A stretch of DNA of 64,000 nucleotides from an uncultured Spirochaetota bacterium (lineage in GTDB: Bacteria; Spirochaetota; UBA4802; UBA5550), in NCBI GenBank assembly GCA_937872225.1, contig CALMRZ010000064.1, forward strand, positions 1 to 64,000, written 5' to 3'. How positions within the stretch are numbered: position 1 is the stretch's first letter; each line of letters starts with the position of its first letter. Of the stretch, positions 11,240-62,149 are shown piece by piece. Made by a program: the position numbers and the translations under genes. Below the pieces are notes generated by a model, which was not told the DNA's origin, ran no database searches, and was given only the letters and a program-made list of their open reading frames with translations.

Positions 11240-11259
11240 GCGCCGTTCCTGTAAAGGGA

Positions 11260-12444
11260 TTAAGCCAGCAGACCGGCCATGAGCTTTTTCAGCTCTTCCA
11301 CTTCCTTGTTGTTCTCAAGATAGGACTTGATCAGCTTCTGATGCAGCTCCTCTCCCCGGTCGTAGAGCCGCTTCAGCTTCTTCGGCTTCGCCGCCCGGCA
11401 GACGTAGGCGACCATGAGGGGCACCGCCACGGTCACGTCGAGGTAGGCCGTCACGGTCTCGTCCAGCTTGGTCGGGTCGATCTTGCCCCAGCTTGCCGCC
11501 TCGCTGGGGGGCGCCCCGGACAGTCCGCCGGTGTCGGGCCGGGCGTCGGTGATGTTGATGTCGTAGTCCTGCCCCACTTCGGGTATCATCAGCACTTCCT
11601 GTATCTGGGGCTCCGTCTGGAGCATGAAGTTCTTCGGGCTGCCGCCGCCGACCAGGATGACGCCGGTCTTGCCCTTCTCGTAGTTCTTCGCGTTCAGGAT
11701 GATGGCGGTCGAGTCATTGACGTCGATGCTCGGGTTGATCTTCAGCCTGAACTTGTCCGCGAGCCCGGCCGCCTCGGCAAGGAGCTCGAGGCCGGCCACG
11801 TTCATGCCTATCGTCGAGTCCCCCGGCGAGGAGGTGAAAACGGGGATGCCGTTCCGGTAGGCGGCCGCGAGGATGCTCACTTCGCCCAGTCCGTTCTTCT
11901 TCTCATGATCGTCCAGCACCTTGCCCAGGTGGTGATAGAATTCCCGGGTACCCATCTCCTTCTGGAACTCGGGCCGGAGCATGATGCGCCGCAGTATCCG
12001 GTCGGTCTCCATGAGGACGTCCTCGTAATCGAAAAGGATGTCGTAGATGCGGGTCACGCCCTTGTCGCGCAGGTCCGTGTCGTCAACGGTGTGGCTCCCC
12101 CGGTACATCGGCAGGTTGAAGGCGAAATGCAGGTCATGGTACATATTGGCGCCGGTGGCCACGATCCAGTCGACATACCCGTGGTTCATGAGAGGTATGA
12201 TCGCCGAGGGCCCCAGGCCGGCCGGCGTCAGGGCGCCGGCAAGGCTCAGGCCCACGGTGACGTCGTCCTGCGAGTAGCGGTCTTTCAGGAGCTGGCAGGC
12301 GGCGCGGAGGCGGCCGCCGTTGTAGGCGTCCATATTGTCAATCAGCGTCACGATATCGGTGTCTTTCGATATGGGCTTCGGAAGAATGCGTTTTCCCGAA
12401 AGATAGCGTTCCTTGCCGGGACAGCTGTTTTTGTCGTGTTTCAT
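11260..12444 (-). CDS. Deoxyhypusine-synthase-family enzyme (probably homospermidine- or polyamine-forming)
   Basis: 394 aa. NAD-dependent aminobutyl transferase family. Features: TVGLSLAGALTPAGLG near 64, DWIVATGANMYHD near 93, and VGGGSPKN with Lys271 at the place of the lysine that carries the aminobutyl group in eukaryotic enzymes. DARPDTGGLSGAPPSEAASWGK matches the NAD-site region with an insert also known in bacterial homologues. Bacteria lack eIF5A, so the acceptor is more likely putrescine or another amine; the adjacent decarboxylase gene supports that. I use ATG 12444 because GAGG sits 7 bases before it; in-frame starts at 12447 and 12462 exist. Confidence 0.85.
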   Translation of the reverse strand: MKHDKNSCPGKERYLSGKRILPKPISKDTDIVTLIDNMDAYNGGRLRAACQLLKDRYSQDDVTVGLSLAGALTPAGLGPSAIIPLMNHGYVDWIVATGANMYHDLHFAFNLPMYRGSHTVDDTDLRDKGVTRIYDILFDYEDVLMETDRILRRIMLRPEFQKEMGTREFYHHLGKVLDDHEKKNGLGEVSILAAAYRNGIPVFTSSPGDSTIGMNVAGLELLAEAAGLADKFRLKINPSIDVNDSTAIILNAKNYEKGKTGVILVGGGSPKNFMLQTEPQIQEVLMIPEVGQDYDINITDARPDTGGLSGAPPSEAASWGKIDPTKLDETVTAYLDVTVAVPLMVAYVCRAAKPKKLKRLYDRGEELHQKLIKSYLENNKEVEELKKLMAGLLA

Positions 12445-12553
12445 CATGCATCCTCTATTCAATAATTATTGATATATGCCTATAAAAAGCCTTATACAGT
12501 GTCAAGAACATATGGTGAATGAACGGATGAAAAAACAACAAGCAATGTTACAA

Positions 12554-12683: not shown

Positions 12684-14231
12684 TTAAAACACCAGCTTTA
12701 CCGAAACCTCGGTGGTGAAGTAGTTCCCGTACACCGTGTACTCCCTGTTCGTCTTGCCCACGAACCCGTTGACCATAAGGTTCAGGGTCATGTCGTAAAA
12801 GGGAGCGTAGGTTATCATGCCCGATATGATGGACGACTGGTCCTGGATGTTCACGACGCAGTTGACCATGGAGGAGAGATCCTCCACGAACATCTGCCGA
12901 ATGGTGATGAAAAGACCGGCATAGTATTTACCGTAGTAGTTCGGCGCGTACAGTCCGCCGGACAGGAAATAACCCGTGGTCAGGATGTCCCTTTCGAACA
13001 TGTTACGGTCGTAACCGGCATGATTGTAGAAAACCTCCGCGTCGAAGCGTATCCGGTCCTTGACGTCAAGCACCTCGAAGCCCCTGCCGAAGCCGAAGCT
13101 CGCCTTCCCGATCCATTTTCCACGGACCCGGTAATCCATCACGTTGCTGCCGGGCGTCGTGACCAGGTAGAGCATCTCGGCCGGAAGCGACGGAAAAAGG
13201 CCGGTTATGTACCAGGGATAGACCCTGAGACGCCGCACATTGTCGCCGTAGGAGAGGCTCGCCTCGCCGTGGACGTCCAGGGTGAAAACGCGGGAGGTGA
13301 AATCGAAGCCGTAGACCGGCACGTTGTGGTTTTTAAGCAGCACTGAAAGGGCCATCTCGGTGTTCAGGAACAGCACTTCCACCTTGTTGGCCATGCTGAT
13401 GTCGCTCAGGTGGCGGGCCTTGTTCATGTTGATGAAGGAATAGATATTGGCCCTGGTGCCGAAGGGAACATGGACCTTCAGCCCATAGGTCCCCTGCCGC
13501 ACCTGAGACGAGTCAAGGATGTTTTTTTTATCGATGTTGATCAGGTCCGTCGGCGTCCAGAGGTACCCGACGCCCCACTTCACCACCTGTTTCCCAAGGC
13601 GGAAATAGACGCGCCTCGCGATGTTCACATCGAGGAAAATCTCGTTTATGTCAAAGACCGCGTTGACCTTCTCCGCGACCATCATGTCCGCCTTGGTGAA
13701 ATAGGCCGGTATCCCCAGGTATGCCAGGGGCACCTGCACTATGCGGGATTTCGGCATGCCTGCCGGATAGTAATCGGCGGAAAGGTTCACATAGCCCCTG
13801 ATACCCTTGAGGAGACGGACATCAAGGCCGAAATTGCCCTGGAAATAGGAAAGAAAATTGCTGGTATCGATCACCTGGAGGTCCCGGAGCATGCTGGCAC
13901 GTTTGTAATTGACGCTGGTCCGGGAATTGAGGAAACCGTTGAAGCTGACCGATTTCTTTTCCATTGTCTCGGAAAGGGTGTCGTCCTTTACCCTGTCGCT
14001 CGGCGTGACCGTGTCCCCGCCGCTGAAAATGTCATCCTCCTGGCTTTTGGCGCCGTCTTTATCCTTCTGGGCGACCTTACGGCGCCCCTCGTCTCCCGGG
14101 GCCTCAAGGAAATACTCGCCGTCGGTCATGATGGCGGCGGCATGGCGAACGCCAATTGCCGTAAACCCGCATACTGCCAGGACCGTGAGAGCGAACACCC
14201 ATTGTTTCCGCATGACCATTGCCGTGACCAT
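12684..14231 (-). CDS. Outer-membrane beta-barrel protein ending the Lol-like export operon
   Basis: 515 aa. Signal peptide in the first 33 residues, a charged low-complexity linker to about 85, then many alternating amphipathic strands and a C-terminal VSVKLVF, a typical barrel-assembly end with terminal Phe. The motif FRLGKQVVKWGVGYLWTPTD resembles porin-like proteins that often sit beside LolA-like genes. It starts 4 bases after the LolA-like stop and is the last of five genes. The ATG at 14231 is used; ATGs at 14219 and 14213 are possible. Probable outer-membrane receiver or exit of the system; substrate unknown. Confidence 0.75.
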   Translation of the reverse strand: MVTAMVMRKQWVFALTVLAVCGFTAIGVRHAAAIMTDGEYFLEAPGDEGRRKVAQKDKDGAKSQEDDIFSGGDTVTPSDRVKDDTLSETMEKKSVSFNGFLNSRTSVNYKRASMLRDLQVIDTSNFLSYFQGNFGLDVRLLKGIRGYVNLSADYYPAGMPKSRIVQVPLAYLGIPAYFTKADMMVAEKVNAVFDINEIFLDVNIARRVYFRLGKQVVKWGVGYLWTPTDLINIDKKNILDSSQVRQGTYGLKVHVPFGTRANIYSFINMNKARHLSDISMANKVEVLFLNTEMALSVLLKNHNVPVYGFDFTSRVFTLDVHGEASLSYGDNVRRLRVYPWYITGLFPSLPAEMLYLVTTPGSNVMDYRVRGKWIGKASFGFGRGFEVLDVKDRIRFDAEVFYNHAGYDRNMFERDILTTGYFLSGGLYAPNYYGKYYAGLFITIRQMFVEDLSSMVNCVVNIQDQSSIISGMITYAPFYDMTLNLMVNGFVGKTNREYTVYGNYFTTEVSVKLVF

Positions 14232-14235
14232 CCCC

Positions 14236-15003
14236 CTACTTGCTCAGGTTCTCGAGGTACGCCTTGGTGAAGATCCTCGGATCGAGCTTCTGCGTCGAGA
14301 TGCCGGAAAGCTCCACGATGCTTTTATTGCCTTTTTCGAATTCATCGATGTATATGTGCTGGATCGGGATGTACTTGCCGTCGATCTGGGTCCATTTCGG
14401 ATAATAGGCCGTCTGCATCAGCGTTCCCGACAGGGAGTAGGACTGGACCTTCAGCATGAGGAAGTTGTCCCGCTGGACCCAGTAGACCTGTTTCGGATAG
14501 GTCACGTCATTGACCTTCGCCAGGAGGGTGAACTTGTACACCGGCTTCTTGCCGAGCACTTCCTCCTCGACGATTTCAGCGCCGTTTGCCCCGGTGAGTG
14601 GCCGGTACAGGTCCACCAGCTTCCGCTTTTCGAAGTCGCCGCCCTTGGCGTCGGTGCCCATGATGCTCTCGTCGCGGCTGATATGCTGGAAGGTACGCGT
14701 GTTCTGCCGGTACATCCAGAAGTTTTCGCCGACGCGGAGGTAGCCGTTCCCCTTTTCCGTGTCCGGTTCGAGGACAACAATGAGGAACTCGTCGGTCACG
14801 TCACGCCTGAAATAGAGAAAGGCGTAATTCTTGATCCCCTGCCGGGCCTTGTTCTGCACGATCGTCGCCTTGACCGATATGTCGCCGATCTGCTCCATCA
14901 TGTCGTCCATCTTCTTCATGATATCGCTGGCTCTCGGCGCCGCCTGGACGCCTGTCACGGCCAGGAGCATGATAAAAAACGGCGCGCAACTCTTCCATCT
15001 CAT
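14236..15003 (-). CDS. LolA-like periplasmic outer-membrane lipoprotein-sorting protein
   Basis: 255 aa. A signal peptide (ending VQA-AP) is followed by the half-barrel fold of the lipoprotein-sorting LolA/LolB-like superfamily: DISVKATIVQ, the conserved YLRVGENFWMYRQNTRTFQ near 90, and a late VYWVQRDNFLMLKVQSYS. Such proteins ferry hydrophobic cargo between membranes. An ATG at 15021 overlaps the upstream stop as TAATG, but GGGAG lies 7 bases before the ATG at 15003, which I prefer. It lies between an FtsX-like permease and a barrel, so cargo hand-over from inner to outer membrane is the natural reading. Confidence 0.82.
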   Translation of the reverse strand: MRWKSCAPFFIMLLAVTGVQAAPRASDIMKKMDDMMEQIGDISVKATIVQNKARQGIKNYAFLYFRRDVTDEFLIVVLEPDTEKGNGYLRVGENFWMYRQNTRTFQHISRDESIMGTDAKGGDFEKRKLVDLYRPLTGANGAEIVEEEVLGKKPVYKFTLLAKVNDVTYPKQVYWVQRDNFLMLKVQSYSLSGTLMQTAYYPKWTQIDGKYIPIQHIYIDEFEKGNKSIVELSGISTQKLDPRIFTKAYLENLSK

Positions 15004-15020
15004 GACTTTCTCCCTGATCA

Positions 15021-16772
15021 TTATTCGAAATGCCCCAGGGCCTCTACCGCGGAAAGATTTGAGGCCCTCCTGGCCGGGAAATACGCCGTCAGACCGGCCA
15101 GGATGATTATAACCGCGAAGCTCCGTATGATTGAAAACGCGGTCGGGTAAAAATAAAGCCGCTGGTTAACCAGGAGTATCGACAGCACGCTGTCGGTGTT
15201 TATGGTGAAAAGACCCAGGACCCACATCATGATAAAGGCCATGATGATCCCGGCAAGGCACGCGAAGGCGGTGAGCAGAACGATCTCAGTTATAAACAGG
15301 TACTTGACGTCGGCCCTCTGCATGCCGATGGCGCGCACGGTGCCGATCTCCCGGGTCCGCTCCCGGATCGTCATGCGCAGGGTGTTGAGCACGCCGATCA
15401 GGATGATGAAAAACAGGATAAGGCCGGCGACCACCGCCACCATGTTCAGGGCTCCCTCCAACTGGAGGATCTGATCCGCGGTTTCGTACATGGTGTTAAT
15501 GTCAAGCCAGGGCCCCTTCCATTTCGTCTTGGTCATCTTCGAGAGCTTCTTCTGCATGTCCTCGTGCGTCGCGGTCCTGGGAAGGAGCCTCCATTCCGGC
15601 GCAAACACCTTCGCAAGGGCCGATTTCCCGTCGGGAATATAGGCGTCCCTGATATCCTTCGGGTCCCCGGGGAGGTTCTCCCGATACGTCTTGTAGAAGG
15701 TCTTCTCGTTCATGAGGACGATGTTCTTCGCCGGCATGGCGCCGGAGCCGAAAACGCCGGTCACCGTGTAGTTGTTCTCGGTCACGATGCCGCCGAACTT
15801 GTTTTTATACCGGTACCTTACGGGGTCCCCTTTTTTCAGTCCGAGCGACGACGCGAGGCTTTTGCTGACGACGACGCCCTTCTCGCTTTTTTCTTCCGGA
15901 AGGGCGCCGGAGAGGATTGGTACGTGCTTATCCATCACCGATACGGCCTCTCTGTTCCTTGAATATCCAAGGGCCGTCGCCGGCGCGGTCTTTTTTTTAA
16001 ATACCATTTCTCCGTATATGACGGCAACTCCGGGCTGCAGGGCCGCATGCAGTTTGTCGGCCGCCTTTATCGCAATGGCAGGATTGTTGAGCTTTTTGAA
16101 ACTGACGTAGAGCGCTCCGGTCTCGTGGTCCCTGTACCCGAGGAGCGCCTTTATATCCTTCTGCTTGAGAAACATGACCATCTCTTCGAACATGTTGCTC
16201 GACCTGATGATGGCGGCCACCGTCAGCCGCGCGCTCTGCTGCTGCCCCGAAATGGTCTGCATCCGCGCCTTGATGACGTCGCCGCACTTCACACCGAGGC
16301 TCTTCGCCTTTGATGAGTAGACCAGCACCGGGTTCTCGAGCCTGTCGCCGGTGAAGTCCCTGATGTTGCCCTCCACAATATTCTGTCCGAAGTAATCATA
16401 AAACTCCTGGTCTATTTCCGTGTTGACGATGATGGCGTTGTCGCCCTTGGCGTTTCCGATGACCCGGGAAAAGACCCCGATGGCCTCCCAGACCTTGTCG
16501 ATGCCCTCGACGTTCGCCTTGATCAGCCCGATGAAACGGTCCTTGTCCCGGATCACCCGCTTCTGCTTGTTGCTTTCTTCCATCGCGGTCAGGTTCATGT
16601 GGCCGGCCATGTACACGATCAGCCTGTTGAAGAGCGTGTCCGATATGCCGTAGGAGAAGGCGTTGGCCATGACGAGGATCATCATGCCGAAGCCGATGGC
16701 GATCCCGAGAAAGGCGTTCCTTCTCTTCTGCCGCAGCAGGTTCCTCAGGCTCAATGACAGTATCAGTTTCAT
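15021..16772 (-). CDS. FtsX/LolE-like ABC transporter permease (second)
   Basis: 583 aa. One N-terminal transmembrane helix after SLRNLLRQKRRNAFLGIAIG, a large periplasmic domain of about 370 residues, then three C-terminal helices containing LRMTIRERTREIGTVRAIGM, the coupling-helix motif typical of the MacB/LolC/LolE family, and a final RRASNLSAVEALGHFE. It is longer than most LolC/E proteins. It starts 9 bases after the first permease's stop and probably pairs with it as a heterodimer driven by the LolD-like ATPase. Confidence 0.88.
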   Translation of the reverse strand: MKLILSLSLRNLLRQKRRNAFLGIAIGFGMMILVMANAFSYGISDTLFNRLIVYMAGHMNLTAMEESNKQKRVIRDKDRFIGLIKANVEGIDKVWEAIGVFSRVIGNAKGDNAIIVNTEIDQEFYDYFGQNIVEGNIRDFTGDRLENPVLVYSSKAKSLGVKCGDVIKARMQTISGQQQSARLTVAAIIRSSNMFEEMVMFLKQKDIKALLGYRDHETGALYVSFKKLNNPAIAIKAADKLHAALQPGVAVIYGEMVFKKKTAPATALGYSRNREAVSVMDKHVPILSGALPEEKSEKGVVVSKSLASSLGLKKGDPVRYRYKNKFGGIVTENNYTVTGVFGSGAMPAKNIVLMNEKTFYKTYRENLPGDPKDIRDAYIPDGKSALAKVFAPEWRLLPRTATHEDMQKKLSKMTKTKWKGPWLDINTMYETADQILQLEGALNMVAVVAGLILFFIILIGVLNTLRMTIRERTREIGTVRAIGMQRADVKYLFITEIVLLTAFACLAGIIMAFIMMWVLGLFTINTDSVLSILLVNQRLYFYPTAFSIIRSFAVIIILAGLTAYFPARRASNLSAVEALGHFE

Positions 16773-16781
16773 GGCGGCCTC

Positions 16782-18299
16782 CTAGTCCCTCATGATGGCG
16801 TCGAGGGGGGTGATCCTCCGGGCCACCTTCAGGGGATAGAGCGTGGCCAGGACCGTGACCAGGGCGAGCTCGACGACCCCGATAACGATGTCCATGCCGT
16901 CAAGGGCCGGCCTGAATACGTCACCCCCGAAGAGGAGCTGCAGGATATGGTTCTCCGAGGTTATGCCGAGGGAATTCAGGACGGCGACGGTCACGGCCCC
17001 CGCGATAATGCCGGCGCCGCCGGAAACGAAGGATATGATCGCCGTTTCGGCCAGGAACATGCCGGCTATAAAAGACTTCTGGGCCCCTACGGCCCTCATC
17101 ATGCCGATCTCGCTGACACGCTCCAGGGCCGCCATGCTCAGGGTGTTCATGATGATTATGATGGCCACGAAGAAGATCAGCATGACGAAGCCGATCGTGG
17201 CGCCCCGCATGATCATGGCGATGTCGCCGAGCTGCCCGATGGCCTTCTTCCAGGGCACCGCCCTCGCCTCGGCGCCGGCGGCAGCGAAGGCGCGGTTGAG
17301 CTTTTCCGCCGACGAATTGATGGCGCCGGGGTCCTTCAGCTTGACGAAGATCAGGTTGTAAGCGCCGGAATCGACGCTGACCTTTTTGCGGACCACCCGC
17401 CTGCCCATCAGCTTCGAGACATCGTAGTTTTTCGTCCCGGTATCGACCTTCTCCACCACGCTGTCGCCGAACAGGCTGTCGAAATTGTCACGATCGAGGA
17501 GCTTCTGCTTGTCCTTGGGCACTTCCGTGACCACGTCGTTTGCGGTGACGTAGTTGAAGACCTCGCGGAAGGACTCGATGTCCATTAAATTGAAATTTTT
17601 CCAGAATTCGTTAAGGTATGAATACCTGATTATGCCGGTGACATTCATTCTGATGTCCATGGTGGTGTTTTCCTGGCTGGTCCCCATCATGACAATGCTG
17701 TTCCTCACGTCCAGGCGGCCTTTATTCGCCAGTGCCTCCGGCGTAAGGGTTTTCTCGTCTAGGGGGACCCCTTCCGGCTGGAGCCAGAAATCCTGCTCGT
17801 CATAGACCCGTTTCCTGCTCCCTGATGAGACCAGTATCCCCCGGTCTTCGTTCCCGAGGAGCTTCCCCTCCACGAGCTGTATGTTGTTCTTGAACATCTT
17901 CTGATAGTCTTCGAACCTGACGCCGAGGACCAGGGCGTAGCCCACGTCGCCGTTGTCGTTCAGTATCAGGGTGAGGCCCTTGCCCACCGGCAGGAACTTC
18001 GCGATGCAGTCCTGGGACGAGAGAACCTTTTTCACCTTATCGAATCCGGCTATGACCTCCACGTCCTTGCCCAGGGGCGTGAAGATTACGTTGTCCTGCT
18101 CCTGCCTGGAGGACATGACCACGATCTGGCCGGTGAAGCGGTTCATGATGTTTTCCTTGAGCCCCTTCTCCATAGCCGACACGACGCCGTTCCCGATGGT
18201 CATGACCATGGCCCCCAGGAAGAGGATGATCCCGACGACCAAGCTCTTGCCGCGGTGCCTCTGGATGTTGCGCCAGGCTATCTTGATGATGAGGCCCAT
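16782..18299 (-). CDS. FtsX/LolC-like ABC transporter permease (first)
   Basis: 505 aa, same topology as the next gene: helix after IAWRNIQRHRGKSLVVG, periplasmic domain, three helices, and the coupling motif AALERVSEIGMMRAVGAQ, ending RRITPLDAIMRD. The ATG follows the ATPase stop directly (TAGATG), so translation is probably coupled. The presence of two different permeases follows the LolC/LolE pattern rather than the MacB homodimer. Confidence 0.88.
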   Translation of the reverse strand: MGLIIKIAWRNIQRHRGKSLVVGIILFLGAMVMTIGNGVVSAMEKGLKENIMNRFTGQIVVMSSRQEQDNVIFTPLGKDVEVIAGFDKVKKVLSSQDCIAKFLPVGKGLTLILNDNGDVGYALVLGVRFEDYQKMFKNNIQLVEGKLLGNEDRGILVSSGSRKRVYDEQDFWLQPEGVPLDEKTLTPEALANKGRLDVRNSIVMMGTSQENTTMDIRMNVTGIIRYSYLNEFWKNFNLMDIESFREVFNYVTANDVVTEVPKDKQKLLDRDNFDSLFGDSVVEKVDTGTKNYDVSKLMGRRVVRKKVSVDSGAYNLIFVKLKDPGAINSSAEKLNRAFAAAGAEARAVPWKKAIGQLGDIAMIMRGATIGFVMLIFFVAIIIIMNTLSMAALERVSEIGMMRAVGAQKSFIAGMFLAETAIISFVSGGAGIIAGAVTVAVLNSLGITSENHILQLLFGGDVFRPALDGMDIVIGVVELALVTVLATLYPLKVARRITPLDAIMRD

Positions 18300-19070
18300 C
18301 TATTTTCTCCTTCCCGCCGGAGACGCGGCCTTCGCGGGGCCGGGCTTCTTTCTGACGCCGCTCTGCCTGAGGTATTTCGAGCTGTCCGTCTTGTCGACGA
18401 TGAGGCCGTCCCTGATCTTGACCACATCGGTCGCGTACTTGAGTACGTCCGGGTCGTGGGTCGAGAAAATAAAGGTGGTCTTCTCTGTCTTATTCAGCTG
18501 CTTCATGAGGGTCAGGATGGATGCGCCGGTTTCCGAATCAAGGTTCGCCGTCGGCTCGTCGGCAAGGACTATCTGCGGCTTTGTCACCAGGGCCCGGGCT
18601 ATGGCCACGCGCTGCCGCTGGCCCCCGGACAGCTCCGCGGGGCGGTGGTCGATGAACTCCTTCAGACCGACCTCCTCGACGCATTGCCTGGCGCGCTCGC
18701 GGATCTCTTCTTTTGTAAGCCGGTTTTCCTTCATCAGCAGGAGGGGAAACTCCACGTTTTCAATGAGGTTCAGCACCGGGATCAGGTTGAAGGTCTGAAA
18801 GATGAAACCGACCTTGAACAGGCGGATATTGGTGAGGTCCGTGTCATCCAGGGTTGTTATTTCCTCGCCCCCGATCTTGACGCTTCCCTCCGTGGGCGTG
18901 TCAATGCACCCGATAAGGTTCAGCAGGGTCGTCTTGCCGCTGCCGGAGGGGCCCACGATGGAAATGAAACCGCCCTCCTCGACCGAGAGATCGATGCCCC
19001 GCAGGGCGTGAACCACGGTTTCACCGAGGGGATAATCCTTTTTGATGTTCTTCATTTCTATTATATTCAT
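18300..19070 (-). CDS. LolD/MacB-type ABC transporter ATP-binding protein
   Basis: 256 aa. Walker A GPSGSGKTT, Q-loop FIFQTFNLIP, signature LSGGQRQRVAIARAL, Walker B ADEPTANLDS, H-loop STHD. A 35-residue basic tail (KKPGPAKAASPAGRRK end) is longer than in usual LolD. AAGGTG sits 6 bases before ATG 19070, so I reject the ATG twelve codons upstream. First gene of the operon that continues to 12684; the promoter should lie in 19071-19353. Confidence 0.92.
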   Translation of the reverse strand: MNIIEMKNIKKDYPLGETVVHALRGIDLSVEEGGFISIVGPSGSGKTTLLNLIGCIDTPTEGSVKIGGEEITTLDDTDLTNIRLFKVGFIFQTFNLIPVLNLIENVEFPLLLMKENRLTKEEIRERARQCVEEVGLKEFIDHRPAELSGGQRQRVAIARALVTKPQIVLADEPTANLDSETGASILTLMKQLNKTEKTTFIFSTHDPDVLKYATDVVKIRDGLIVDKTDSSKYLRQSGVRKKPGPAKAASPAGRRK

Positions 19071-19353
19071 AGGTGCACCTTCCCATTGATACTGTAACAC
19101 CGGCAACGACCAATCGTGTCACAGCATCGGCGTAAAAAAATATCAGGAGCTGGACTATTGCAGAAAGAACCGTGCCGATGCCCAGCTATACTCCTTCAGA
19201 ATACTGGATTGTCAATACAATATAACAACGGAAAAGGTAATTTCAGGTATTTTTCCAAAATTTCTCCTGCGCGCGCAAAAGCCCGGGCAGGAGGTCTTTA
19301 AAACCCCATTTCGACTTCCCGGCAGCAGGCCCCATGAAATTTCTACCGGTCGT

Positions 19354-53209: not shown

Positions 53210-53696
53210 CACAATCCCCCCTTTTGGAGAACATATAATTCCATTAAAATAAAAACCTTAAAATTATCACATTATTTAAATTAACCGTCTGGACGGTATT
53301 GATATAAAATCATTTTTTTTCTTGGTGTTTTCACAATAAAATAGATTAAAAAAATCATTAAGTCCTATCAAAATGAATTTAAATTGAAAATGATATATTC
53401 AAAAAAAGATGATATAATTTTGACAAGTGACCTGCTAAAAACAGTCTTGTCAGGCATATGACCGGGGTTAATAAGATATAATAAATGCTCGGTTTTAATT
53501 TTTGGCATACAATCGCTAAAAATAACTGTAATTCATTAAAATACTTGCATAATTTTAAATTTTTCCCTGCCTTTATTATTGCTGATTTCTGTCCAGTCGG
53601 CAAAACTGTCAACGGGGATACCCGGATGGCAGACTGATACTGCAGGGACAGGAATGCCTGGTCAATGTCCAGCCACAATGTAAGAGGTGTGAATTG
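53210..53696. other. AT-rich divergent intergenic region
   Basis: 487 bases between the divergent cadherin-like lipoprotein gene and the 7TMR-DISM regulator gene, strongly AT-rich. A short minus-strand open frame (53379-53678) has no motif or ribosome site and is not called. The palindrome at 53284-53297 is the only clear element. Confidence 0.45.
53284..53297. promoter_or_regulatory. Operator-like palindrome ACCGTC TG GACGGT
   Basis: Six-base perfect arms around a 2-base centre, the only GC-rich patch in an AT-rich gap. It lies 75 bases upstream of the cadherin-like lipoprotein start and 400 bases upstream of the AraC-type regulator. It could be a binding site for that regulator, though AraC sites are usually direct repeats. 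Confidence 0.35.
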
Positions 53697-55868
53697 ATGG
53701 GAGTAATCCGGACTTTTATCGCCGCAGCAGGAATACTCACGCTCGTATCATCGGTCCAATCAGCCCCGATCAGGCTCAATGAGTCCCTGGACCAGATACC
53801 GATCGGATTACATATCGAATTCCTCAAAGACGTGGGGGGAGCACTGTCCATTGACGATGTATCAAGCCCGGCTTTTGCCGGCACATGGTTCCCATCCGGC
53901 GAAACCTATCCCGGCTTCGGCTTTACCGGGGCCGTTTACTGGGCCCGCTTCACTCTGGTCAATACAACCGGGAAGGAGATCCCCTTCTACCTCGAACAGG
54001 CCTACCCGCTTATCCACGACCTGCAGCTGTATGTGCCGAACGGCCACAACGCTTTCCGGAAAATAGAAACCGGGACCCGGTTCAATTTTTCGAACCGTCC
54101 CTGCATACACCGGACCTTTGTATTCCCTCTTTCCATAGAAGCCAATTCGTCAAAGACCTACTACATCAGGCAAAAGACCCCGAGCTCGATGTACTTTCCC
54201 CTGACGATATGGTCGCCGTCTCATTTCACGGCATCGTCCGTCATCGAGGACCGGCTCCTGATGTTTTATTACGGCATGATGATCATCATGGCGTTCAATT
54301 ATCTGTTCATTTATTTCCTGATACGGCACCTCAGTTATCTGAACTTTACCCTTTTCATACTTTCGATTCTTCTTTTTATCATGTCCCAGATCGGGGTCAC
54401 CTTTCAGCTGCTGATGCCGAACAGCCCGGACCTTGCGGGAATCTGTCCGCCCCTGTTCCTGTGCCTTGCCAATTTAACCAGCAACCGCTTTATCCTGGTT
54501 TTTCTCCAGCTGAAGAAAAACGCCCCGGTTTTCAAAAAGGCTCTCGATGGCCAGGCAATCATCCAGCTCCTGGCCACATGCTCGGCGATCACCATCCCCT
54601 TTTTCGACACGTACAAGCTCGTCATGCCCGTGACCGCATTCATGACCGTCGTCTCGATCATTACCGCCTTCTGCGCGGGCATCTACCTCGTATGGCGGCG
54701 GCAGAGGAGCGCCTATATCTTCGCCCCCATCAGCATGGGCTTCCTCGCGGGATCCATCCTCTACGTGCTCAGGAGCTTCGGACTGATCGCCGGCAGCTTC
54801 CTCACGACCTGGTCGATCGTGATCGGGTCCGCCACCTTCCTCGTCACCATGTCCATTGCCATGGTCGACCGCATAAACGTCATGCGCAAAGGCCTCAAGC
54901 TGGTCTCGCAGAAGCTCGAGGAAGAAATCAAGGAGCGGAGCATTGAGCTTCTCCTGAGCGAAATCGTGTCCAAGATCACCGAGGACAGGGGCAAAAAGGC
55001 CCCGGCCGCCGGCGGGATTTCCGCGTACGCGCCGTCCATCAGGACCATCCTGGACAACCAGCGGGACCTCGCCATAACGAAACTGAGCCGGGACATCAGC
55101 ATCATATCGAACATGGACGAGCTCAGGGAAAAAACCATCCGGAAGGCAAAGGAGCTGACCCAGGCCAGGAAGGTCTATTTCTTCACCATCGACGAGTATA
55201 ACGACATGGAGCTCCGGACATTCATCGACGATCTCGAGGGAAAGCGCAACGGCTATTGCGCCGATATCGTCGAGGAGGTCCTGGACAACGGTGCGCCGGT
55301 CATCACCTCCTCCGGCAGCGGACAGGAATCGCCGTCAGTCATGTGCATCCCCATCAAATCCGCAGACCGCACCATCGGCATCTGCTACTTCGAGAAAGCG
55401 GCCGCGGACTTCGGGTTCACCGAAAAGGATTCCCTCCTGCTCATGGCGTTCGCCGACAACATCGTCGGCGTGTTTGAAAACGCCCTCCAGTACCGGAGAA
55501 AGATGTCCAGGGAGGATGCCGCCAGGACCTATTCCATAACGTCCGTCACCAAAGAGAAGATAAACAAGGCCATCGAGTACATCAACGCGAATTACACCTG
55601 CGACATATCCCGTGAGGGCCTTGCGGCGTCACTGGACATCAGCCCCAACCACCTGGGCAAATTCTTCAAGGTCCAGACGGGAAAGAAGATCAACGAATAC
55701 ATCAACGAACTGAGGATACGGGACGCGGCGAAAAAGCTCCGGGAACAGAAACAGGAGACGATCATCAATATCGCCTTCAGCGTCGGTTTTGAAAGCCTGA
55801 GCACCTTCAACCGGACGTTTCTCAAGATCATGGGCATCACACCCTCTGAATACAAGGACCGGCAATAG
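53697..55868 (+). CDS. 7TMR-DISM membrane sensor fused to GAF and AraC-type DNA-binding domain
   Basis: 723 aa. Signal peptide, then a periplasmic 7TMR-DISMED2-like carbohydrate-binding-type domain (45-175; VYWARFTLVN, FYLEQAYPLIHDLQLY), seven membrane helices (195-395), a short coiled coil, a GAF-like domain (about 455-610; VMCIPIKSADRTIGICYFEK) and a C-terminal AraC helix-turn-helix pair (615-720; NYTCDISREGLAASLDISPN, INIAFSVGFESLSTFNR). DNA binding from a membrane-bound one-component regulator is implied. GAGGTG lies 8 bases before ATG 53697. Confidence 0.88.
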   Translation: MGVIRTFIAAAGILTLVSSVQSAPIRLNESLDQIPIGLHIEFLKDVGGALSIDDVSSPAFAGTWFPSGETYPGFGFTGAVYWARFTLVNTTGKEIPFYLEQAYPLIHDLQLYVPNGHNAFRKIETGTRFNFSNRPCIHRTFVFPLSIEANSSKTYYIRQKTPSSMYFPLTIWSPSHFTASSVIEDRLLMFYYGMMIIMAFNYLFIYFLIRHLSYLNFTLFILSILLFIMSQIGVTFQLLMPNSPDLAGICPPLFLCLANLTSNRFILVFLQLKKNAPVFKKALDGQAIIQLLATCSAITIPFFDTYKLVMPVTAFMTVVSIITAFCAGIYLVWRRQRSAYIFAPISMGFLAGSILYVLRSFGLIAGSFLTTWSIVIGSATFLVTMSIAMVDRINVMRKGLKLVSQKLEEEIKERSIELLLSEIVSKITEDRGKKAPAAGGISAYAPSIRTILDNQRDLAITKLSRDISIISNMDELREKTIRKAKELTQARKVYFFTIDEYNDMELRTFIDDLEGKRNGYCADIVEEVLDNGAPVITSSGSGQESPSVMCIPIKSADRTIGICYFEKAAADFGFTEKDSLLLMAFADNIVGVFENALQYRRKMSREDAARTYSITSVTKEKINKAIEYINANYTCDISREGLAASLDISPNHLGKFFKVQTGKKINEYINELRIRDAAKKLREQKQETIINIAFSVGFESLSTFNRTFLKIMGITPSEYKDRQ

Positions 55869-56055
55869 TCCCACTTACCGCCCCGCCGGGGCCTTATGCG
55901 GGAATCTTTTATGAAAATTATAAAAAAAATCAACTTCCCCGGTGACATGTTGTCAAATTAATGGTGTTACATACATCAAGAGAACGGCTGATTTGAATTT
56001 GTCACCGATTCGAATATTTTTAAAACAGTAAGGACATTAACGAGAGGGGGTCATC

Positions 56056-57303
56056 ATGAAAAAACTCATTATTGCCGTGCTGGCGCTCTGTGCCGCCCGG
56101 GCCGTCTATGCCGATGAAATCATCCTGAAGGACGGCACGGTCCTCAAAGGAACCGTCATACAGGTCACCGATAGCGCCGTCGAATACGATCCGGAAGGCC
56201 CGGCGCCTTTTGACACGGTGTCACGGGAGCGCATATCGAAGATCATCTATCCCGGCGGCAGGGAACAGCATTTCCTGCTGGATTCCATTACCCTGACCGG
56301 CGGCGCAACCATCAGGTGCTCCATCGTAAGGGTCACCAAAGACAGCATCGTCTACCGGAAGGACGGGGTCGGCGAAGAAATAACGCTGGGCCGGGACGGC
56401 GTCGCCCGGATTGACTTCAGCGACGGCAGGAGCGTGGAAATCGCCGGGAAGGAGGTTCCCGTTGCCCCGGACCAGCCGGCCCAGAAGCCCGCCGGGGGCT
56501 ATCACTCCTCCATCTTCAGGATGTCGCTGTTCGGCGGCGGCGGCCTGATTGACGGCGGGACCATCCACAAGGAGCGCCGGGTGTTCAGGTCCTACCGGAC
56601 CGACCTCATGGTCGCCACCATGAACATATTCGACCATGACCAGTATGCCGGCTTCGGCACCGGCGGCGTCGAGATGGAGTTCATGCCGCCCGCCATCAGG
56701 TTTTCCCAGGAGCGGGCCTTTGACTTCACCGGCATCAAGTTCGGCATACGCGGCCGCTATGGATACGAACAGGTCATGAGCGTCATCACAACGGATGCCA
56801 TCCATGATCACTATGACGGTCCCGATGACATTTACACGGGCAGGCTGATGAAGTACCACTACTGGACCGCCGGTCCGGTGATCAATTTCATCTTCAGCCC
56901 CCGGAGCAATGTCGCCAACTTCATGCTGAGCCTGTACGGGATGGCCGGCCAGGTCTTCGGCGGCAACCTCAACCCCATGTCCTCCCTGCGCCAGTCGAAA
57001 AACCTGACGGCGTACCTGGCCGGGGTCTGGAGCTCGACGGGATTGCAGCCCCTGATGGGCTGGGCCAACCTGTATTCACTGAGCTCGCTCAACAAGACGA
57101 CCGTCCGCGGCCACACCATCCGGTGCGGTTTCGGACCCGAGTTCAGCCTGAACAGGCACTTCCCGCTGGTGATCGGTCTCCACGTGACCTACGCGTACAC
57201 GAGCCTGACCTACGGCAGGGCCCCGCTCATCTACATGGACGGCAACAAAAAGGCCGCCCATCATGAACTGGGCGGAGAGGTTTCGGTAGGCATCCATATG
57301 TAA
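56056..57303 (+). CDS. Outer-membrane protein: N-terminal beta repeats plus barrel shared with the caspase protein
   Basis: 415 aa. Signal peptide (ending VYA-DE), then two or more small beta units (DEIILKDGTVLKGTVIQVTD; a second at SITLTGGATIRCSIVRVTKD) that resemble each other, a Pro-rich hinge near 140-155 and a C-terminal barrel of about 255 residues. The barrel matches the C-terminal part of the caspase protein at 58665-60614: SIFRMSLFGG, MPPAIRF, FGIRGRYGYE, HYWTAGP, FGPEFSLN, KKAAHHELGGEVS. GAGGGGG lies 5-6 bases before the ATG. It is followed after 64 bases by the sigma/anti-sigma/caspase genes on the same strand. Confidence 0.85.
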   Translation: MKKLIIAVLALCAARAVYADEIILKDGTVLKGTVIQVTDSAVEYDPEGPAPFDTVSRERISKIIYPGGREQHFLLDSITLTGGATIRCSIVRVTKDSIVYRKDGVGEEITLGRDGVARIDFSDGRSVEIAGKEVPVAPDQPAQKPAGGYHSSIFRMSLFGGGGLIDGGTIHKERRVFRSYRTDLMVATMNIFDHDQYAGFGTGGVEMEFMPPAIRFSQERAFDFTGIKFGIRGRYGYEQVMSVITTDAIHDHYDGPDDIYTGRLMKYHYWTAGPVINFIFSPRSNVANFMLSLYGMAGQVFGGNLNPMSSLRQSKNLTAYLAGVWSSTGLQPLMGWANLYSLSSLNKTTVRGHTIRCGFGPEFSLNRHFPLVIGLHVTYAYTSLTYGRAPLIYMDGNKKAAHHELGGEVSVGIHM

Positions 57304-57367: not shown

Positions 57368-57859
57368 ATGAGCATAGATATAGAGGACTATTACCGGCGA
57401 TACGGGCCGATGGTGATGAGAAGGTGCCGCCGCCTCCTCGGCGACGAGGACCGGGCCCTGGACGCGATGCAGGAGGTATTTGTGAGCCTGATCAGAAACA
57501 GCGGGAAGCTTACCGGCGCGTACCCGTCAAGCCTCCTTTACCGGATGGCGACCAACGTCTGCCTGAACATGATCAGGGAGGACAAACGGAAGCCGGTGAC
57601 GCATGATACCGATTCACTCGCAATGATAGCCCGCTTTGACGAGGCGGAGGAGCGGACTGATGCCGGCGACCTTCTTGACCGCATCTTCGAGCGCGGCGCC
57701 GCATCGTCGCGGGAGATCGCCGTCATGCGCTACGTCGACGGGATGACCCTGGAGGAAGTCGCCCGTGAGGCCGGCCTCTCCGTGTCGGGCGTCCGCAAAA
57801 GACTCAGGAAGCTCCAGGAGACGGCGCGGAGCCTTGTTTCCGGGGAGGCATTGCCATGA
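57368..57859 (+). CDS. ECF-type sigma factor
   Basis: 163 aa. Region 2: RRLLGDEDRALDAMQEVFVS and LLYRMATNVCLNMIREDKRK; region 4 helix-turn-helix: MRYVDGMTLEEVAREAGLSV then SGVRKRLRK. Starts at ATG 57368 with a weak ribosome site; an in-frame TTG lies 12 codons earlier. Its last four bases overlap the next start (ATGA), so sigma and the following membrane protein are made together. It probably drives its own operon. Confidence 0.9.
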   Translation: MSIDIEDYYRRYGPMVMRRCRRLLGDEDRALDAMQEVFVSLIRNSGKLTGAYPSSLLYRMATNVCLNMIREDKRKPVTHDTDSLAMIARFDEAEERTDAGDLLDRIFERGAASSREIAVMRYVDGMTLEEVAREAGLSVSGVRKRLRKLQETARSLVSGEALP

Positions 57860-58659
57860 ACGCGCCTCAAATACCCGATATAACCCTGGAGCGCTATGTC
57901 CTTAATGAACTCCCGGCTGAACGGATGAAGGAGATCGGGAAACTGGTCGCGGCCGACCCGTCGCTGCGGAAGCGCGTCGACGAAATCAGCGAATCCAGCC
58001 GCGCCATCCTGAAGCGCTATGCGCCCGAATCCATGGCGCCCCTGATACTTCGCCGCGCGGTCCTCGCGGGACGCACCGCCGGACGGACCGCCGAGAAACG
58101 GTCCCCATGGAGACTCTTCCTCATTCCGTCCCTGGCGGCGGCCGCTGTCGTGACCCTCGTCATATTCGTCCCGCTTTTCAGGTCCGGATACGACTCCATC
58201 CTTGATCCCTCTATAACCGACGTCACCCGCGTCAAGGGGGCCCCGGCGAAGATATTCATATACCGAAAAACAGGCGGCAGCGCCGAGCTCCTTGCCAACA
58301 ACCGCAGGGTCCGGGAAAAGGACCTCCTCCAGATCGCCTACTACTCGGCGGAGGACACCCACGGCATCGTCCTGTCCCTGGACGGCCGCGGCACCGTCAC
58401 CCTGCACTACCCGACTCCGCCGTCAACCGTTACCGCCATCGAGAAGAACAGGCAGATACTCCTTCCCAACTCCTACGAGCTGGATGACGCCCCCGGGTTC
58501 GAGCGCTTCATACTCATAACGTCCCGGAAGCCCCTGGACGTGCGGTCGGTCTTACGCGCCGCGCAAAGGCTGGCAAAAAAACCGGTCAGCGCGAAAAAGG
58601 ACGATTTAACTATTGACACTCCGTGCCGGCAGACATCACTGGTGCTTCTCAAGGATTGA
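57856..58659 (+). CDS. Probable anti-sigma factor with single membrane helix and periplasmic domain
   Basis: 267 aa. Cytosolic part (1-85) begins ITLERYVLNELPAERMKEIG, typical of anti-sigma N-terminal helices (no zinc-binding HxxxCxxC); one helix at 88-108; then a periplasmic beta-rich domain (110-260: AKIFIYRKTGGSAELLANNR, GIVLSLDGRGTVTLHYP) that resembles DUF4384-like sensor modules, which are often found next to caspase proteins. It overlaps the sigma gene by four bases, and its stop is 5 bases before the caspase gene. Likely holds the sigma factor until an envelope cue arrives. Confidence 0.8.
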   Translation: MNAPQIPDITLERYVLNELPAERMKEIGKLVAADPSLRKRVDEISESSRAILKRYAPESMAPLILRRAVLAGRTAGRTAEKRSPWRLFLIPSLAAAAVVTLVIFVPLFRSGYDSILDPSITDVTRVKGAPAKIFIYRKTGGSAELLANNRRVREKDLLQIAYYSAEDTHGIVLSLDGRGTVTLHYPTPPSTVTAIEKNRQILLPNSYELDDAPGFERFILITSRKPLDVRSVLRAAQRLAKKPVSAKKDDLTIDTPCRQTSLVLLKD

Positions 58660-58664
58660 CAGCC

Positions 58665-60614
58665 ATGCGGTACATCCAGGTCATATCTGCACTAATAATT
58701 TCAACGCTGGCCTTCGCGGCCGGGACCGGCCACGCGGCGCGCCAGGACGTGCTGAAGCGCTACGCCGTAATCATCGGGTCGAACAACGGCGGCCCCGACC
58801 GGGTGAAGCTCCGCTACGCCGTTTCCGACGCGAAAGCGGTCATGGAAGTCCTCAGGAAGCTCGGCGGCGTCGAGCAGGACAGCGGCGTGCTCCTCGTCGA
58901 GCCGCGGAAGGAGCGTCTCATTGATTCGATCTCGGAAATCCGGAGCCGGGTCATAACCGCGAAAAAAACCTATGCCCGGGTCGAGCTGATATTCTACTAT
59001 TCAGGCCACTCCGACGAGGAAGGCATCATCCCGGGCGGCGAGAAGATCTATTATCGTGACATCAAGCAGGCGGTCATCAACATCCCCGCCGACGTCCGCA
59101 TCGCGATCCTCGATTCCTGCTCCTCCGGGGCCTTCACCAGCGTCAAGGGCGGCAGGATGCGCTCTCCCTTCCTGGTGGACCGGTCCCACTCCATGAAGGG
59201 CTTCGCCTTCATGACATCGAGCTCATCGGACGAGGCGTCCCAGGAATCCGACCGCATCAGGGGGTCCTTCTTCACGCACTCCCTCCTCACCGGCCTCCGC
59301 GGGGCCGCTGACCAGATCGGCGACGGGAGAATAACCCTGAACGAGGCGTACCAGTACGCCTACGCGGAGACGCTGGCACGCACCGAGAAGACCCTGCGCG
59401 GGCCCCAGCACCCGAACTACTACATCACCATGTCCGGCTCCGGCGATGTTGTCCTGACGGAGATACGGAGGAGCTCCAGCACGCTGGTCCTTTCCAAGCC
59501 GATAAACGGCAGGGTGTTCCTCCGCGACGGAAGGAAGGCCCTGGTGGCCGAGCTGAACAAGGGCGCGGGACGCGCGGTGACCCTGGGCCTTGAAAGCGGC
59601 GCCTACACGGTCGTGAACGAAAGGGAGGGAAAGCTCTACGAAGCCAGCGTGACCCTTGCCGCCGGCGGCAGCCAGACCCTCACCTACAGCGGCTTTGCCG
59701 TGGTGGACAGGGAATCGACAAGGTCCCGCGGCGACGGCAGCGGCGAATCCGCGGACGGCGGCGCCGCGGAGCACCAGGGGAGCGCCGCCACCGAGGTTGC
59801 GGTCCAGCCCGGCGGCTTCATAGACTCCATCGTCAGGATATCCCTCTACGGCGGCATCGGCGTCTGGCAGGGGGGCGTTGCGGGCAAGGAAAAACGCCGC
59901 GTCGACGCCTTCAAACCGTACCTTACCATTGCCTACCTCAAGCAGATGGACTATACCATGGGCCCGCTGTTCCTGTGCATGGGACCGGAAATCGATATCA
60001 TGGCGCCGGCAATCAGGTTCGCGGGAAAGAAACGGTTCGACCTGAAGGGGATCAAGTTCGGCGTAAAGGCCCGGTACGGATACGAGGTGTCCGAAACCAT
60101 ACTTGTCGATACCGCGAACCAGGGAAAGGAGGAACAGAACAATATCCTCCAGGGCAGGCTCGCGACCTACCATTACTGGAGCGCCGGCCCGACAATGAAT
60201 ATTGTCTTAAGTCCCCGCAGCAACATCTTCAACGTTATTGTGAATTGCTATATCACGGGGGGACAGGTTTTTAACGGCAGGCTCACCGGCGGGTCAGTGC
60301 TGCGGGGCTCGTCCCGTTTATGGCTGCTGACCGCCGGGTACTTCGGGGTCCCCGGTGCGACGCTGCCCCCGGCCTTACTCGCGCTGCAGGCCGGAGAGTT
60401 CAACGCTACCCGGATAAAGGGCTACACCATACGGGGAGGCTTCGGGCCGGAGATATGCCTGAACAAGTGGGTGCCGCTGATATTCGGGATACACCTGACC
60501 TACTCCTACACCAGCCTTACCCTGTCAAGGCCGCTCCCGGTCTATTTTGACGCGGACCGGAAGGCCGCCCACCATGAACTCGGAGCGGAGCTGTCGCTGG
60601 GATTCCATTTCTAG
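58665..60614 (+). CDS. Secreted caspase-like (peptidase C14) protein with outer-membrane barrel
   Basis: 649 aa. Signal peptide (ending GHA-AR), a caspase-like domain (30-260) with His115 in YYSGHSDEEG and Cys152 in LDSCSSGAF, the two catalytic residues of clan CD, a beta-rich linker (280-360), an Ala/Gly/Ser-rich stretch, then a C-terminal barrel of about 260 residues homologous to that of 56056-57303, ending LGFHF with a terminal Phe. Such a protein would anchor in the outer membrane with the protease in the periplasm or at the surface. AAGGA lies 9 bases before ATG 58665. It is the target gene of the sigma/anti-sigma operon. Confidence 0.88.
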   Translation: MRYIQVISALIISTLAFAAGTGHAARQDVLKRYAVIIGSNNGGPDRVKLRYAVSDAKAVMEVLRKLGGVEQDSGVLLVEPRKERLIDSISEIRSRVITAKKTYARVELIFYYSGHSDEEGIIPGGEKIYYRDIKQAVINIPADVRIAILDSCSSGAFTSVKGGRMRSPFLVDRSHSMKGFAFMTSSSSDEASQESDRIRGSFFTHSLLTGLRGAADQIGDGRITLNEAYQYAYAETLARTEKTLRGPQHPNYYITMSGSGDVVLTEIRRSSSTLVLSKPINGRVFLRDGRKALVAELNKGAGRAVTLGLESGAYTVVNEREGKLYEASVTLAAGGSQTLTYSGFAVVDRESTRSRGDGSGESADGGAAEHQGSAATEVAVQPGGFIDSIVRISLYGGIGVWQGGVAGKEKRRVDAFKPYLTIAYLKQMDYTMGPLFLCMGPEIDIMAPAIRFAGKKRFDLKGIKFGVKARYGYEVSETILVDTANQGKEEQNNILQGRLATYHYWSAGPTMNIVLSPRSNIFNVIVNCYITGGQVFNGRLTGGSVLRGSSRLWLLTAGYFGVPGATLPPALLALQAGEFNATRIKGYTIRGGFGPEICLNKWVPLIFGIHLTYSYTSLTLSRPLPVYFDADRKAAHHELGAELSLGFHF

Positions 60615-60660: not shown

Positions 60661-61404
60661 CTATATTTGCGCTTCCTGGCCGCCTGATTCCGGCTTCTCG
60701 TTGAACCGGTACATCACCCCGATAGCGGCATAGCCTTCCGGTCCCATGACATTAAAAAGTTTTTTATGAATCCCATCTTTACTCTCTTTTTTAAAATCGG
60801 TATAAATATGGAACCTGAATCCTCCCTCCAGCGGTATTGTGACAGACGAACTGATATTGATATTAAAGCCCAGGGTCATACCGATATGAAAATTGGCTGT
60901 GCTAAAACTCAAGGTTTCCCAGTAGGAATTATCTCCAAGTGAATAGCTGCTGTTATAATCCGGATTAATATACCTGTTGCTCCCCCACAGATAACCGAAT
61001 CCCACATGGGGGCCGACCCATAAACGCACAGTATCATCGGAGTATATACCGGCACCAACAATATGCGTCATGCTAACGCGATGGAGCATTTTTATATCAA
61101 CATTATCCGATTTCTGATAATCATACCCCACACTGAAGCGATAATTGAAAACTGATTTTTTTCCGAGGTTGGTGTCAGCCACGAACCCGCACCCCACGGT
61201 CATGGTGGTCCCGATAGAATTCTTATTTGATAATATCAATTCTGATTGTTCATATAAAAAACCGCCGCCCCCCGTGATAAACTGGACACCAACCCCGGAA
61301 GCCGAAGACGGTGTCCCTTTTATTATCACAATACTTACCGCGGCCAGGACGGATAAGAACGACCATGCAAAGCTGTTAATAATTTTTATGAAATTCGTCA
61401 TCAT
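60661..61404 (-). CDS. Outer-membrane barrel protein, downstream member of a coupled pair
   Basis: 247 aa. Signal peptide followed by amphipathic strands; conserved pieces VFNYRFSVGYDYQ, VRLWVGPHVGFGYLWG, MTLGFNINISSSVTIPLEGG and GYAAIGVMYRFNEK. It is a paralogue of the protein encoded by 61401-62149. The ATG overlaps the stop of that gene (ATGA), so it is translated only after ribosomes finish the upstream frame, which is now broken by a frameshift. GC is lower than that of most genes here. A 10-residue polar tail follows the last strand. Confidence 0.75.
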   Translation of the reverse strand: MMTNFIKIINSFAWSFLSVLAAVSIVIIKGTPSSASGVGVQFITGGGGFLYEQSELILSNKNSIGTTMTVGCGFVADTNLGKKSVFNYRFSVGYDYQKSDNVDIKMLHRVSMTHIVGAGIYSDDTVRLWVGPHVGFGYLWGSNRYINPDYNSSYSLGDNSYWETLSFSTANFHIGMTLGFNINISSSVTIPLEGGFRFHIYTDFKKESKDGIHKKLFNVMGPEGYAAIGVMYRFNEKPESGGQEAQI

Positions 61405-62149
61405 TTTTGTCCGCCTGTATTGTTTTCAACAACGCCTGCTCCCGGTTCTCCCATCCTGTACATGATCCCAAGGGACAGATACAGGCCATCCGCGTACCCG
61501 TTTACCATCTTACTGATAGTAACTTTCTCAAAACCCATAAAGTATTCCCTTCGAAACATACCATAATACACATCATATCTCCAGGAGCCTTCTATCATCA
61601 TCGTTATATTTTTTTTAAAATTTACATTCATACCCAGAGCAAGGCCGAAGGTGCCTCCGATCATTGAATAGTGGAGCCTGTCAATATAATTCAGATTAAT
61701 AGAAATCCAATTACCATATACTGCCAGCATATTTTTCCGGCTTCCCCGGTAGATCCCGTCGAGCGCCGCAAAACCGACCTGGGGTCCCATCCATAACCTG
61801 AAATCTTCACGGCGGATGATGCCCAACCCGAAGGTGTTGACAACCTGCGCCCTTGTTGTCATATTTGGTATGGCGCTTTCTCGCTTTACGGTATCAAAAG
61901 CACGCGCCCCCCCAGCGCAATACGGTAATTGAAAATGCCCGGACCCGAGCAGTTCGCATCGATAACCAGCCCTCCACCGGCAATATAATTGCCGTATTTC
62001 CTGTAAAACAGCAATGGCTTGATATTTTTATCCAGGGCCGTCGTCCCGTACCCGAACATGCCGTAGCCGCCGATGCCGGCGGAACGCGCTTCAATGGAGA
62101 TGAACAAAAGAAAAATGCACAGCAATGGCGCAAATAATATGTTTCTCAT
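61401..62149 (-). pseudogene. Outer-membrane barrel protein interrupted at a G7 run (phase-variable or frameshifted)
   Basis: From ATG 62149 a signal peptide and first strands (MRNILFAPLLC, IFNYRIALGG) are read until a stop at 61886. The rest lies one frame over: ARAFDTVKRESAIPNMTTRA, FRLWMGPQVGFAALDG, GLALGMNVNFKKNITMMIEG, LYLSLGIMYRMGEP. Eight instead of seven G (C7 at 61907-61913 on the plus strand) would join both parts into one protein that aligns along its whole length with the 60661-61404 product. This is either slipped-strand phase variation, a recent mutation or a sequencing error. Confidence 0.72.

Follow-up and report, generated by a model that had tools for sequence, protein, structure and literature searches.

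In the DegS/RseA/RpoE system, and likewise with RsiW/SigW, a periplasmic protease, a one-helix anti-sigma factor, an ECF sigma factor and envelope targets occur together. Of these proteins, DegS is a serine protease of the inner membrane that carries a PDZ domain. In type III-E CRISPR systems, cleavage of Csx30 by the caspase-like protease Csx29 releases an ECF sigma factor, and this is the nearest mechanistic precedent for the locus described here (PMC10028731). Operons of a sigma-70 factor and a metacaspase were noted in 2012 for Myxococcus xanthus, Anaeromyxobacter, Haliangium, Sorangium, Ralstonia and Fibrobacter (PMC3501461).

The role of secreted bacterial caspase homologs is almost unknown. 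The module analysed here encodes such a homolog directly behind a sigma/anti-sigma pair, and it is found in many phyla, both uncultured and cultured.

Organization of the locus

The operon lies near the right end of the window, which is the whole stretch of 64,000 nt of spirochaete DNA that was analysed. Its features are:

56056–57303, plus strand: stand-alone secreted paralog of the caspase C-terminal domain, 415 aa, probable first operon gene
57368–57859, plus strand: ECF sigma factor, from Pfam, TIGR02937 and identity to the relatives' sigma factors
57856–58659, plus strand: predicted one-helix anti-sigma factor with a DUF4384-like periplasmic domain and no zinc motif
58228–58239, plus strand: R125-V-K127-G128 of the anti-sigma factor, predicted cleavage motif, from an alignment of 68
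58665–60614, plus strand: secreted caspase, 649 aa, with signal peptide, caspase domain, beta-sandwich and probable outer-membrane barrel
58755–59450, plus strand: caspase domain, about residues 31–262, with H115 (59007–59009), D150 and C152 (59118–59120)
59139–59150, plus strand: S159-V-K161-G162 loop, predicted self-processing motif, nine residues after the catalytic Cys
59451–59714, plus strand: beta-sandwich, residues 263–350, conserved together with the caspase domain
59796–60611, plus strand: C-terminal domain, residues 378–649, probable outer-membrane barrel, from alignment A5, the beta-signal end and strand scores

The sigma, anti-sigma and caspase ORFs are placed as in the original prediction, with a 4-nt overlap between the first two and a 5-nt gap between anti-sigma and caspase. 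The ORF at 56056–57303 had been overlooked. It is 39% identical to the C-terminal part of the caspase over 354 aa, and it is probably gene one of the operon, because a promoter sits in front of it and the gene order is the same in the congener G004 (7TM/AraC regulator, paralog, sigma, anti-sigma, caspase). The regulator, whose gene at 53694–55868 lies immediately before the operon and keeps this position in G004, is a 7TMR-DISM receptor fused to GAF and an AraC-type HTH; it is a possible second regulator. Directly 3′ of the caspase are two more OMP-like ORFs, convergent to it (60661–61404 and 61401–61862, minus strand).

The sigma factor matches Sigma70_r2 (E 9e-13), Sigma70_r4 and TIGR02937 (E 2e-20; 73.4 bits, cut-off 42.9). 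Having regions 2 and 4 only, with TIGR02937 above its cut-off, it is an ECF sigma factor, and it shares 38–61% identity with the sigma factors of the relatives' loci. The next ORF has a single membrane helix and lacks the zinc motif. It scores 35.7 bits for NF052375, under the cut-off of 100; the layout and the membrane helix of a membrane-type anti-sigma factor are present, and on these two grounds it is predicted to be one. Its periplasmic part, first described as DUF4384-like, does form one highly conserved family in the alignment of relatives, but membership of DUF4384 itself does not hold, as the Pfam score of 18.6 bits is under the 27-bit cut-off. Divergent relatives in Myxococcus score 27 bits for DUF4384.

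Promoter and predicted targets

Spaced words were counted blind in front of the family sigma genes, and GTGAC/TGTT came out in 26 of the loci tested, with 6 or fewer in shuffles. The pattern GTRACA-N14..16-KGTGTT is present at 29 of 70 loci, where 0.02 are expected, and is centred 60 nt before the start. The operon promoter consensus is GTRACA-N15-GGTGTT. GAAC-type ECF promoters upstream of the family sigma genes were not above shuffles. Two matches to the motif are found in the window, against 0.01 expected by chance, and one of them precedes a second operon:

55942–55968, plus strand: predicted sigma promoter GTGACA-N15-GGTGTT, 87 nt 5′ of the first gene
19096–19122, minus strand: another promoter predicted for this sigma factor, 26 nt before the ATG of the LolD-like gene
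12684–19070, minus strand: predicted target operon, with a LolD-like ABC ATPase, two FtsX/MacB-like permeases, a LolA-like protein and a 515-aa OMP-like protein

The first site precedes the free paralog and not the sigma gene, and it has the same place in G004. The second is also kept in G004, at 27 nt from the LolD-like gene. The target operon matches ABC_tran, FtsX, MacB_PCD and LolA_like (E 2e-40). From these sites, the sigma factor is predicted to drive its own operon and the LolD/FtsX/LolA-like operon, a regulon of two sites. Two more motif matches in the source genome (contigs C10 and C66) were dropped, with no clear gene start behind them. Below the LolA-like operon, at 10106–12462 on the minus strand, a deoxyhypusine synthase-like gene (E 3e-68) lies beside a decarboxylase-like gene.

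The caspase domain

Peptidase_C14 (PF00656) matches residues 31–217 of the 649-aa protein with an E value of 1.6e-11, above the cut-off, and this is the sole PF00656 match in the source genome. H115, C152 and Asp150 are invariant across 70 relatives. The signal peptide, recognised by eye, is MRYIQVISALIISTLAFAAGTGHAA, and 69 of the 70 caspases have a signal-peptide-like start. A profile built from the relatives retrieves metacaspases in the PDB, and the predicted structure of one relative, L058, resembles metacaspase-4 (Z 20.4, rmsd 2.7, 205 residues). The protein thus combines a caspase fold with a His-Cys dyad and belongs to peptidase family C14. The caspase domain with His115 and Cys152 that had been read from this locus is borne out by profile comparison, and by structure comparison for the relative L058.

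The nearest named caspase model is that of the EACC1-associated caspases (NF047832). The window caspase scores 60.1 bits against it (E 2e-16), far under the 140-bit cut-off, and is not a member. No EACC1 partner was recognised in the window operon.

A motif shared by the caspase and the anti-sigma factor

Apart from the caspases, all C14 proteases that have been characterised cleave behind Arg or Lys, and C14 proteases outside animals need such a basic residue at P1 (PMC5756287). Asp150, which sits two residues N-terminal of Cys152 in all 70 caspases, bears on an acidic S1 pocket for such a P1.

In the anti-sigma alignment (n = 68), Lys127-Gly128 is found in 68/68 sequences and Arg125 in 58/68. 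This R-x-K-G follows the membrane helix at a distance of some 20 residues, on the periplasmic side. In the caspase alignment (n = 70), Lys161-Gly162 is found in 70/70 and Arg159 in 63/70; the window caspase has Ser159. The K-G region starts the sole long disordered loop in the L058 caspase model. Of the strongly conserved patterns of such a shape, 11 in the caspase and 3 in the anti-sigma factor, R.KG is the only one that both proteins have. In two sister lineages Leu replaces Arg in both proteins, and covariation at P3 between caspase and anti-sigma is weak (P 0.019, with shared ancestry ignored). The divergent zinc-type anti-sigma factors linked to caspases in Myxococcus keep the Lys-Gly, and it is absent from two DUF4384 proteins that have no caspase.

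The shared R-x-K-G, taken with the basic P1 of non-caspase C14 proteases, suggests that the caspase may cut itself and the anti-sigma factor at the common motif. Type I metacaspases show no self-processing between p20 and p10, which counts against a self-processing loop (PMC5756287), as does the Ser that the window caspase has in place of Arg, and the invariant Lys-Gly could be structural instead. The motif of the anti-sigma factor might also be a docking or inhibitory element that keeps the caspase inactive, so that release of the caspase, and not cleavage, would be the key event. Lys-Gly in 68/68 would be expected of an inhibitor no less than of a substrate; however, the caspase repeats the motif in its own disordered loop, which fits processing better, and we consider the inhibitory role improbable.

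Three unrelated spirochaete caspases (L022, L023 and L027) have Arg-Arg-Gly at a nearly equal distance after the catalytic Cys, which is perhaps another self-processing loop.

Conservation of the triad

Profile searches for the family caspase and anti-sigma factor were made in 296 Spirochaetota genomes. They identified 50 caspases, each with the anti-sigma gene directly upstream (50/50), and 52 anti-sigma factors, with the caspase next in 50; both remaining anti-sigma genes are close to where a contig ends (about 200 nt or less). The triads looked for in other spirochaetes are present, and the linkage is complete from caspase to anti-sigma factor and nearly so in the other direction. Caspase profile scores drop from above 320 to below 65 bits, showing a discrete family, except for one fragment at a contig edge. 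Most spirochaetes that carry the family have one caspase per genome. In four other genomes of the genus a paralog is present, and no anti-sigma factor or caspase of the family was found.

A first scan of genome contigs with a single caspase sequence as query gave no relatives. The broader scan gave 365, and among the best 80 of these 365 the full triad is found in 70, the loci that lack it being mostly at contig edges. According to the labels of the MAG records, the hosts include Spirochaetota, Aminicenantes, Myxococcota, Latescibacteria, Goldiibacteriota, FCPU426 and Fibrobacter, with single records labelled Acidobacteria and Gemmatimonadota. The original prediction of a secreted caspase governed by an ECF circuit of its own is strongly supported, and the arrangement is conserved across phyla.

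Two loci of Latescibacteria (L118 and L125) have a tandem pair of family caspases behind a single sigma/anti-sigma pair. In a Myxococcus sp. (G296), with 12 matches in the genome, the divergent caspases of L163 and L167 lie behind zinc-type, DUF4384-like anti-sigma factors.

The linkage bears on whether the caspase is only an output of the circuit. The anti-sigma factor would then sense through its DUF4384-like domain or through another protease, and the caspase would act on envelope or surface proteins. The position of the operon under the promoter of its own sigma factor agrees with this, and the periplasmic domain of the anti-sigma factor is highly conserved, as for a sensor. A mere target gene, however, should sometimes separate or be replaced, and here the linkage is 50/50; moreover, the shared R-x-K-G is left unexplained. 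We therefore regard an output-only caspase as possible but rather unlikely. The strict one-to-one linkage and the common motif make the caspase at least as likely to be the activating protease of the circuit as its target, the part given to it in the original prediction.

Exchangeable C-terminal domains

The first 350 residues of the caspase are mostly 43–58% identical among relatives within the order. The C-terminal types that follow are mutually unrelated. LA_2272 surface repeats (NF047436) form the C-terminal part of 47/70 relatives and are absent from the window caspase; OMP_b-brl is found in 4/70. Mapped on the caspase tree, the types require 8 changes, and shuffled types 18.7. They are thus clustered on the tree, yet have been exchanged more than once. 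An outer-membrane-type terminus is present in 49/69 complete family caspases, as opposed to 21/366 neighbouring ORFs.

The AF2 model of L058, made from 50 sequences (pLDDT 88), predicts a caspase domain, an OmpA-like barrel and a beta-helix that aligns to 3p4g (Z 20.4). The barrel matches NspA, OprF, OmpA, OmpX and Ail with Foldseek probabilities of 0.99–1.00 and modest E values of 0.004–0.011. Among the relatives, an outer-membrane beta-barrel is thus seen in the confident model of one, L058. The caspases are secreted proteins and, taken over the whole family, are coupled to domains of the outer membrane or the surface. At L062:8616-10745, two short downstream ORFs encode the sandwich and C-terminal part only, without the caspase domain.

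The C-terminal domain of the window caspase is common to the ORF at 56056 and to genus-level paralogs, an 11-member family (A5). Its end, ELGAELSLGFHF, is beta-signal-like, with hydrophobic residues at −1, −3, −5 and −7. The amphipathic-strand score is in the top 6% of controls; strand density by itself does not set barrels apart, the same value being reached by 16% of controls. Searches of viral contigs gave no further homologs, and no homology to the short-barrel class was detected (hhalign probability 0.1). An AF2 model from the single sequence was discarded (pLDDT 30). The barrel that had been predicted for this C-terminus gave no match in Pfam, PDB or profile searches, but the beta-signal-like end, the strand score and the rule seen across the family make it probable.

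Surface exposure raises the question of a death or fratricide enzyme produced under stress. Such a role was proposed for extracellular bacterial metacaspases by Asplund-Samuelsson and co-workers, and the surface repeats of the 47 relatives would suit it. Against it, neither an immunity gene nor a toxin delivery gene was recognised in the operon, and most spirochaetes with the family have a single copy; this role appears very unlikely.

The window is one of several loci with a free copy of the C-terminal domain. In at least 11 others (L054, L058, L061, L063, L065, L073, L077, L079, L084, L099 and L100), a stand-alone secreted homolog of the locus's own caspase C-terminus is encoded within a few kb, as at 56056–57303, and several unrelated types are represented. 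The same promoter precedes the free copy in 3 of these other loci. We know of no precedent for free copies of the anchor beside a caspase. They would suit an anchor or bait that the cell also produces separately from the protease.

Proposed mechanism

We propose a self-contained module for sensing the envelope, in which an envelope-tethered metacaspase acts as the site-1 protease of its own anti-sigma factor, a reading drawn from sequence to which we give a little under an even chance. Beyond the linkage and the shared motif, it is favoured because both partners are periplasmic, to judge from the signal-peptide-like starts and the one-helix anti-sigma factor, because of the promoter and the envelope target operon, and because Csx29/Csx30 provides a precedent.

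In the resting state, the anti-sigma factor would hold the sigma factor at the inner membrane. The caspase domain would become free or active in the periplasm when a signal reaches the surface or when its outer-membrane domain fails to assemble. The active caspase would process itself at the R/S-x-K-G that follows the catalytic Cys, and would cut the anti-sigma factor at the R-x-K-G located some 20 residues outside the membrane. Next, a site-2 protease would release the sigma factor, which would transcribe both the operon that encodes it (with free barrel, sigma, anti-sigma and caspase) and the LolD/FtsX/LolA-like envelope operon. Here we infer the outer-membrane anchoring of the window protein, the cleavage, the direction of signalling and the inducing stress. 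The link to the envelope made in the original prediction is supported by the outer-membrane and surface C-termini, and by the promoter before the LolD/FtsX/LolA-like operon in two species; envelope damage may be the trigger.

A doubtful but more specific version is that the caspase is an assembly sentinel. The outer-membrane domain would serve as bait for the barrel-assembly route. Successful assembly would fix the protease at the outer membrane, out of reach of the anti-sigma factor, and failed assembly would leave it near the inner membrane, where it would process itself and cut the anti-sigma factor at the common R-x-K-G. This would explain the freely swapped outer-membrane domain, the free copy often encoded alongside, and the LolA/LolD-like target operon. 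If true, it would to our knowledge be the first metacaspase acting as an envelope-stress site-1 protease.

If the site-1 protease reading is right, bacterial caspases gain a defined signalling role outside cell death, anti-sigma proteases gain a member of a new kind, and an envelope-stress circuit is defined for spirochaetes and related bacteria. The promoter motif would then permit regulon prediction. The enzyme and its predicted substrate motif are encoded side by side, which makes the prediction concrete and cheap.

Comparison with known systems

No description of the outer-membrane-anchored form of the caspase was found in the open-access literature. The view that caspases of this kind are unusual has to be given up, as sigma-70/metacaspase operons had already been noted in 2012 in myxobacteria and others. 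These operons have the sigma factor and the caspase homolog in one operon, as here, and the myxobacterial and Fibrobacter relatives are probably among them. The accessible text of the 2012 report does not mention the anti-sigma partner, the outer-membrane or surface C-termini, the shared motif, the promoter or the regulon (PMC3501461).

Csx29, Csx30 and CASP-sigma also place a caspase-like protease beside an ECF sigma factor and its inhibitor, and there the protease cuts the inhibitor. However, Csx29 is a cytoplasmic, RNA-activated CHAT protease, and the layout of Csx30 is unrelated to that of the window anti-sigma factor (PMC10028731).

The proposed module is like DegS/RseA/RpoE and RsiW/SigW in the order of its parts, from periplasmic protease to envelope targets. 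It differs from DegS in that the protease is a metacaspase fused to an outer-membrane-type domain and encoded together with the sigma/anti-sigma pair.
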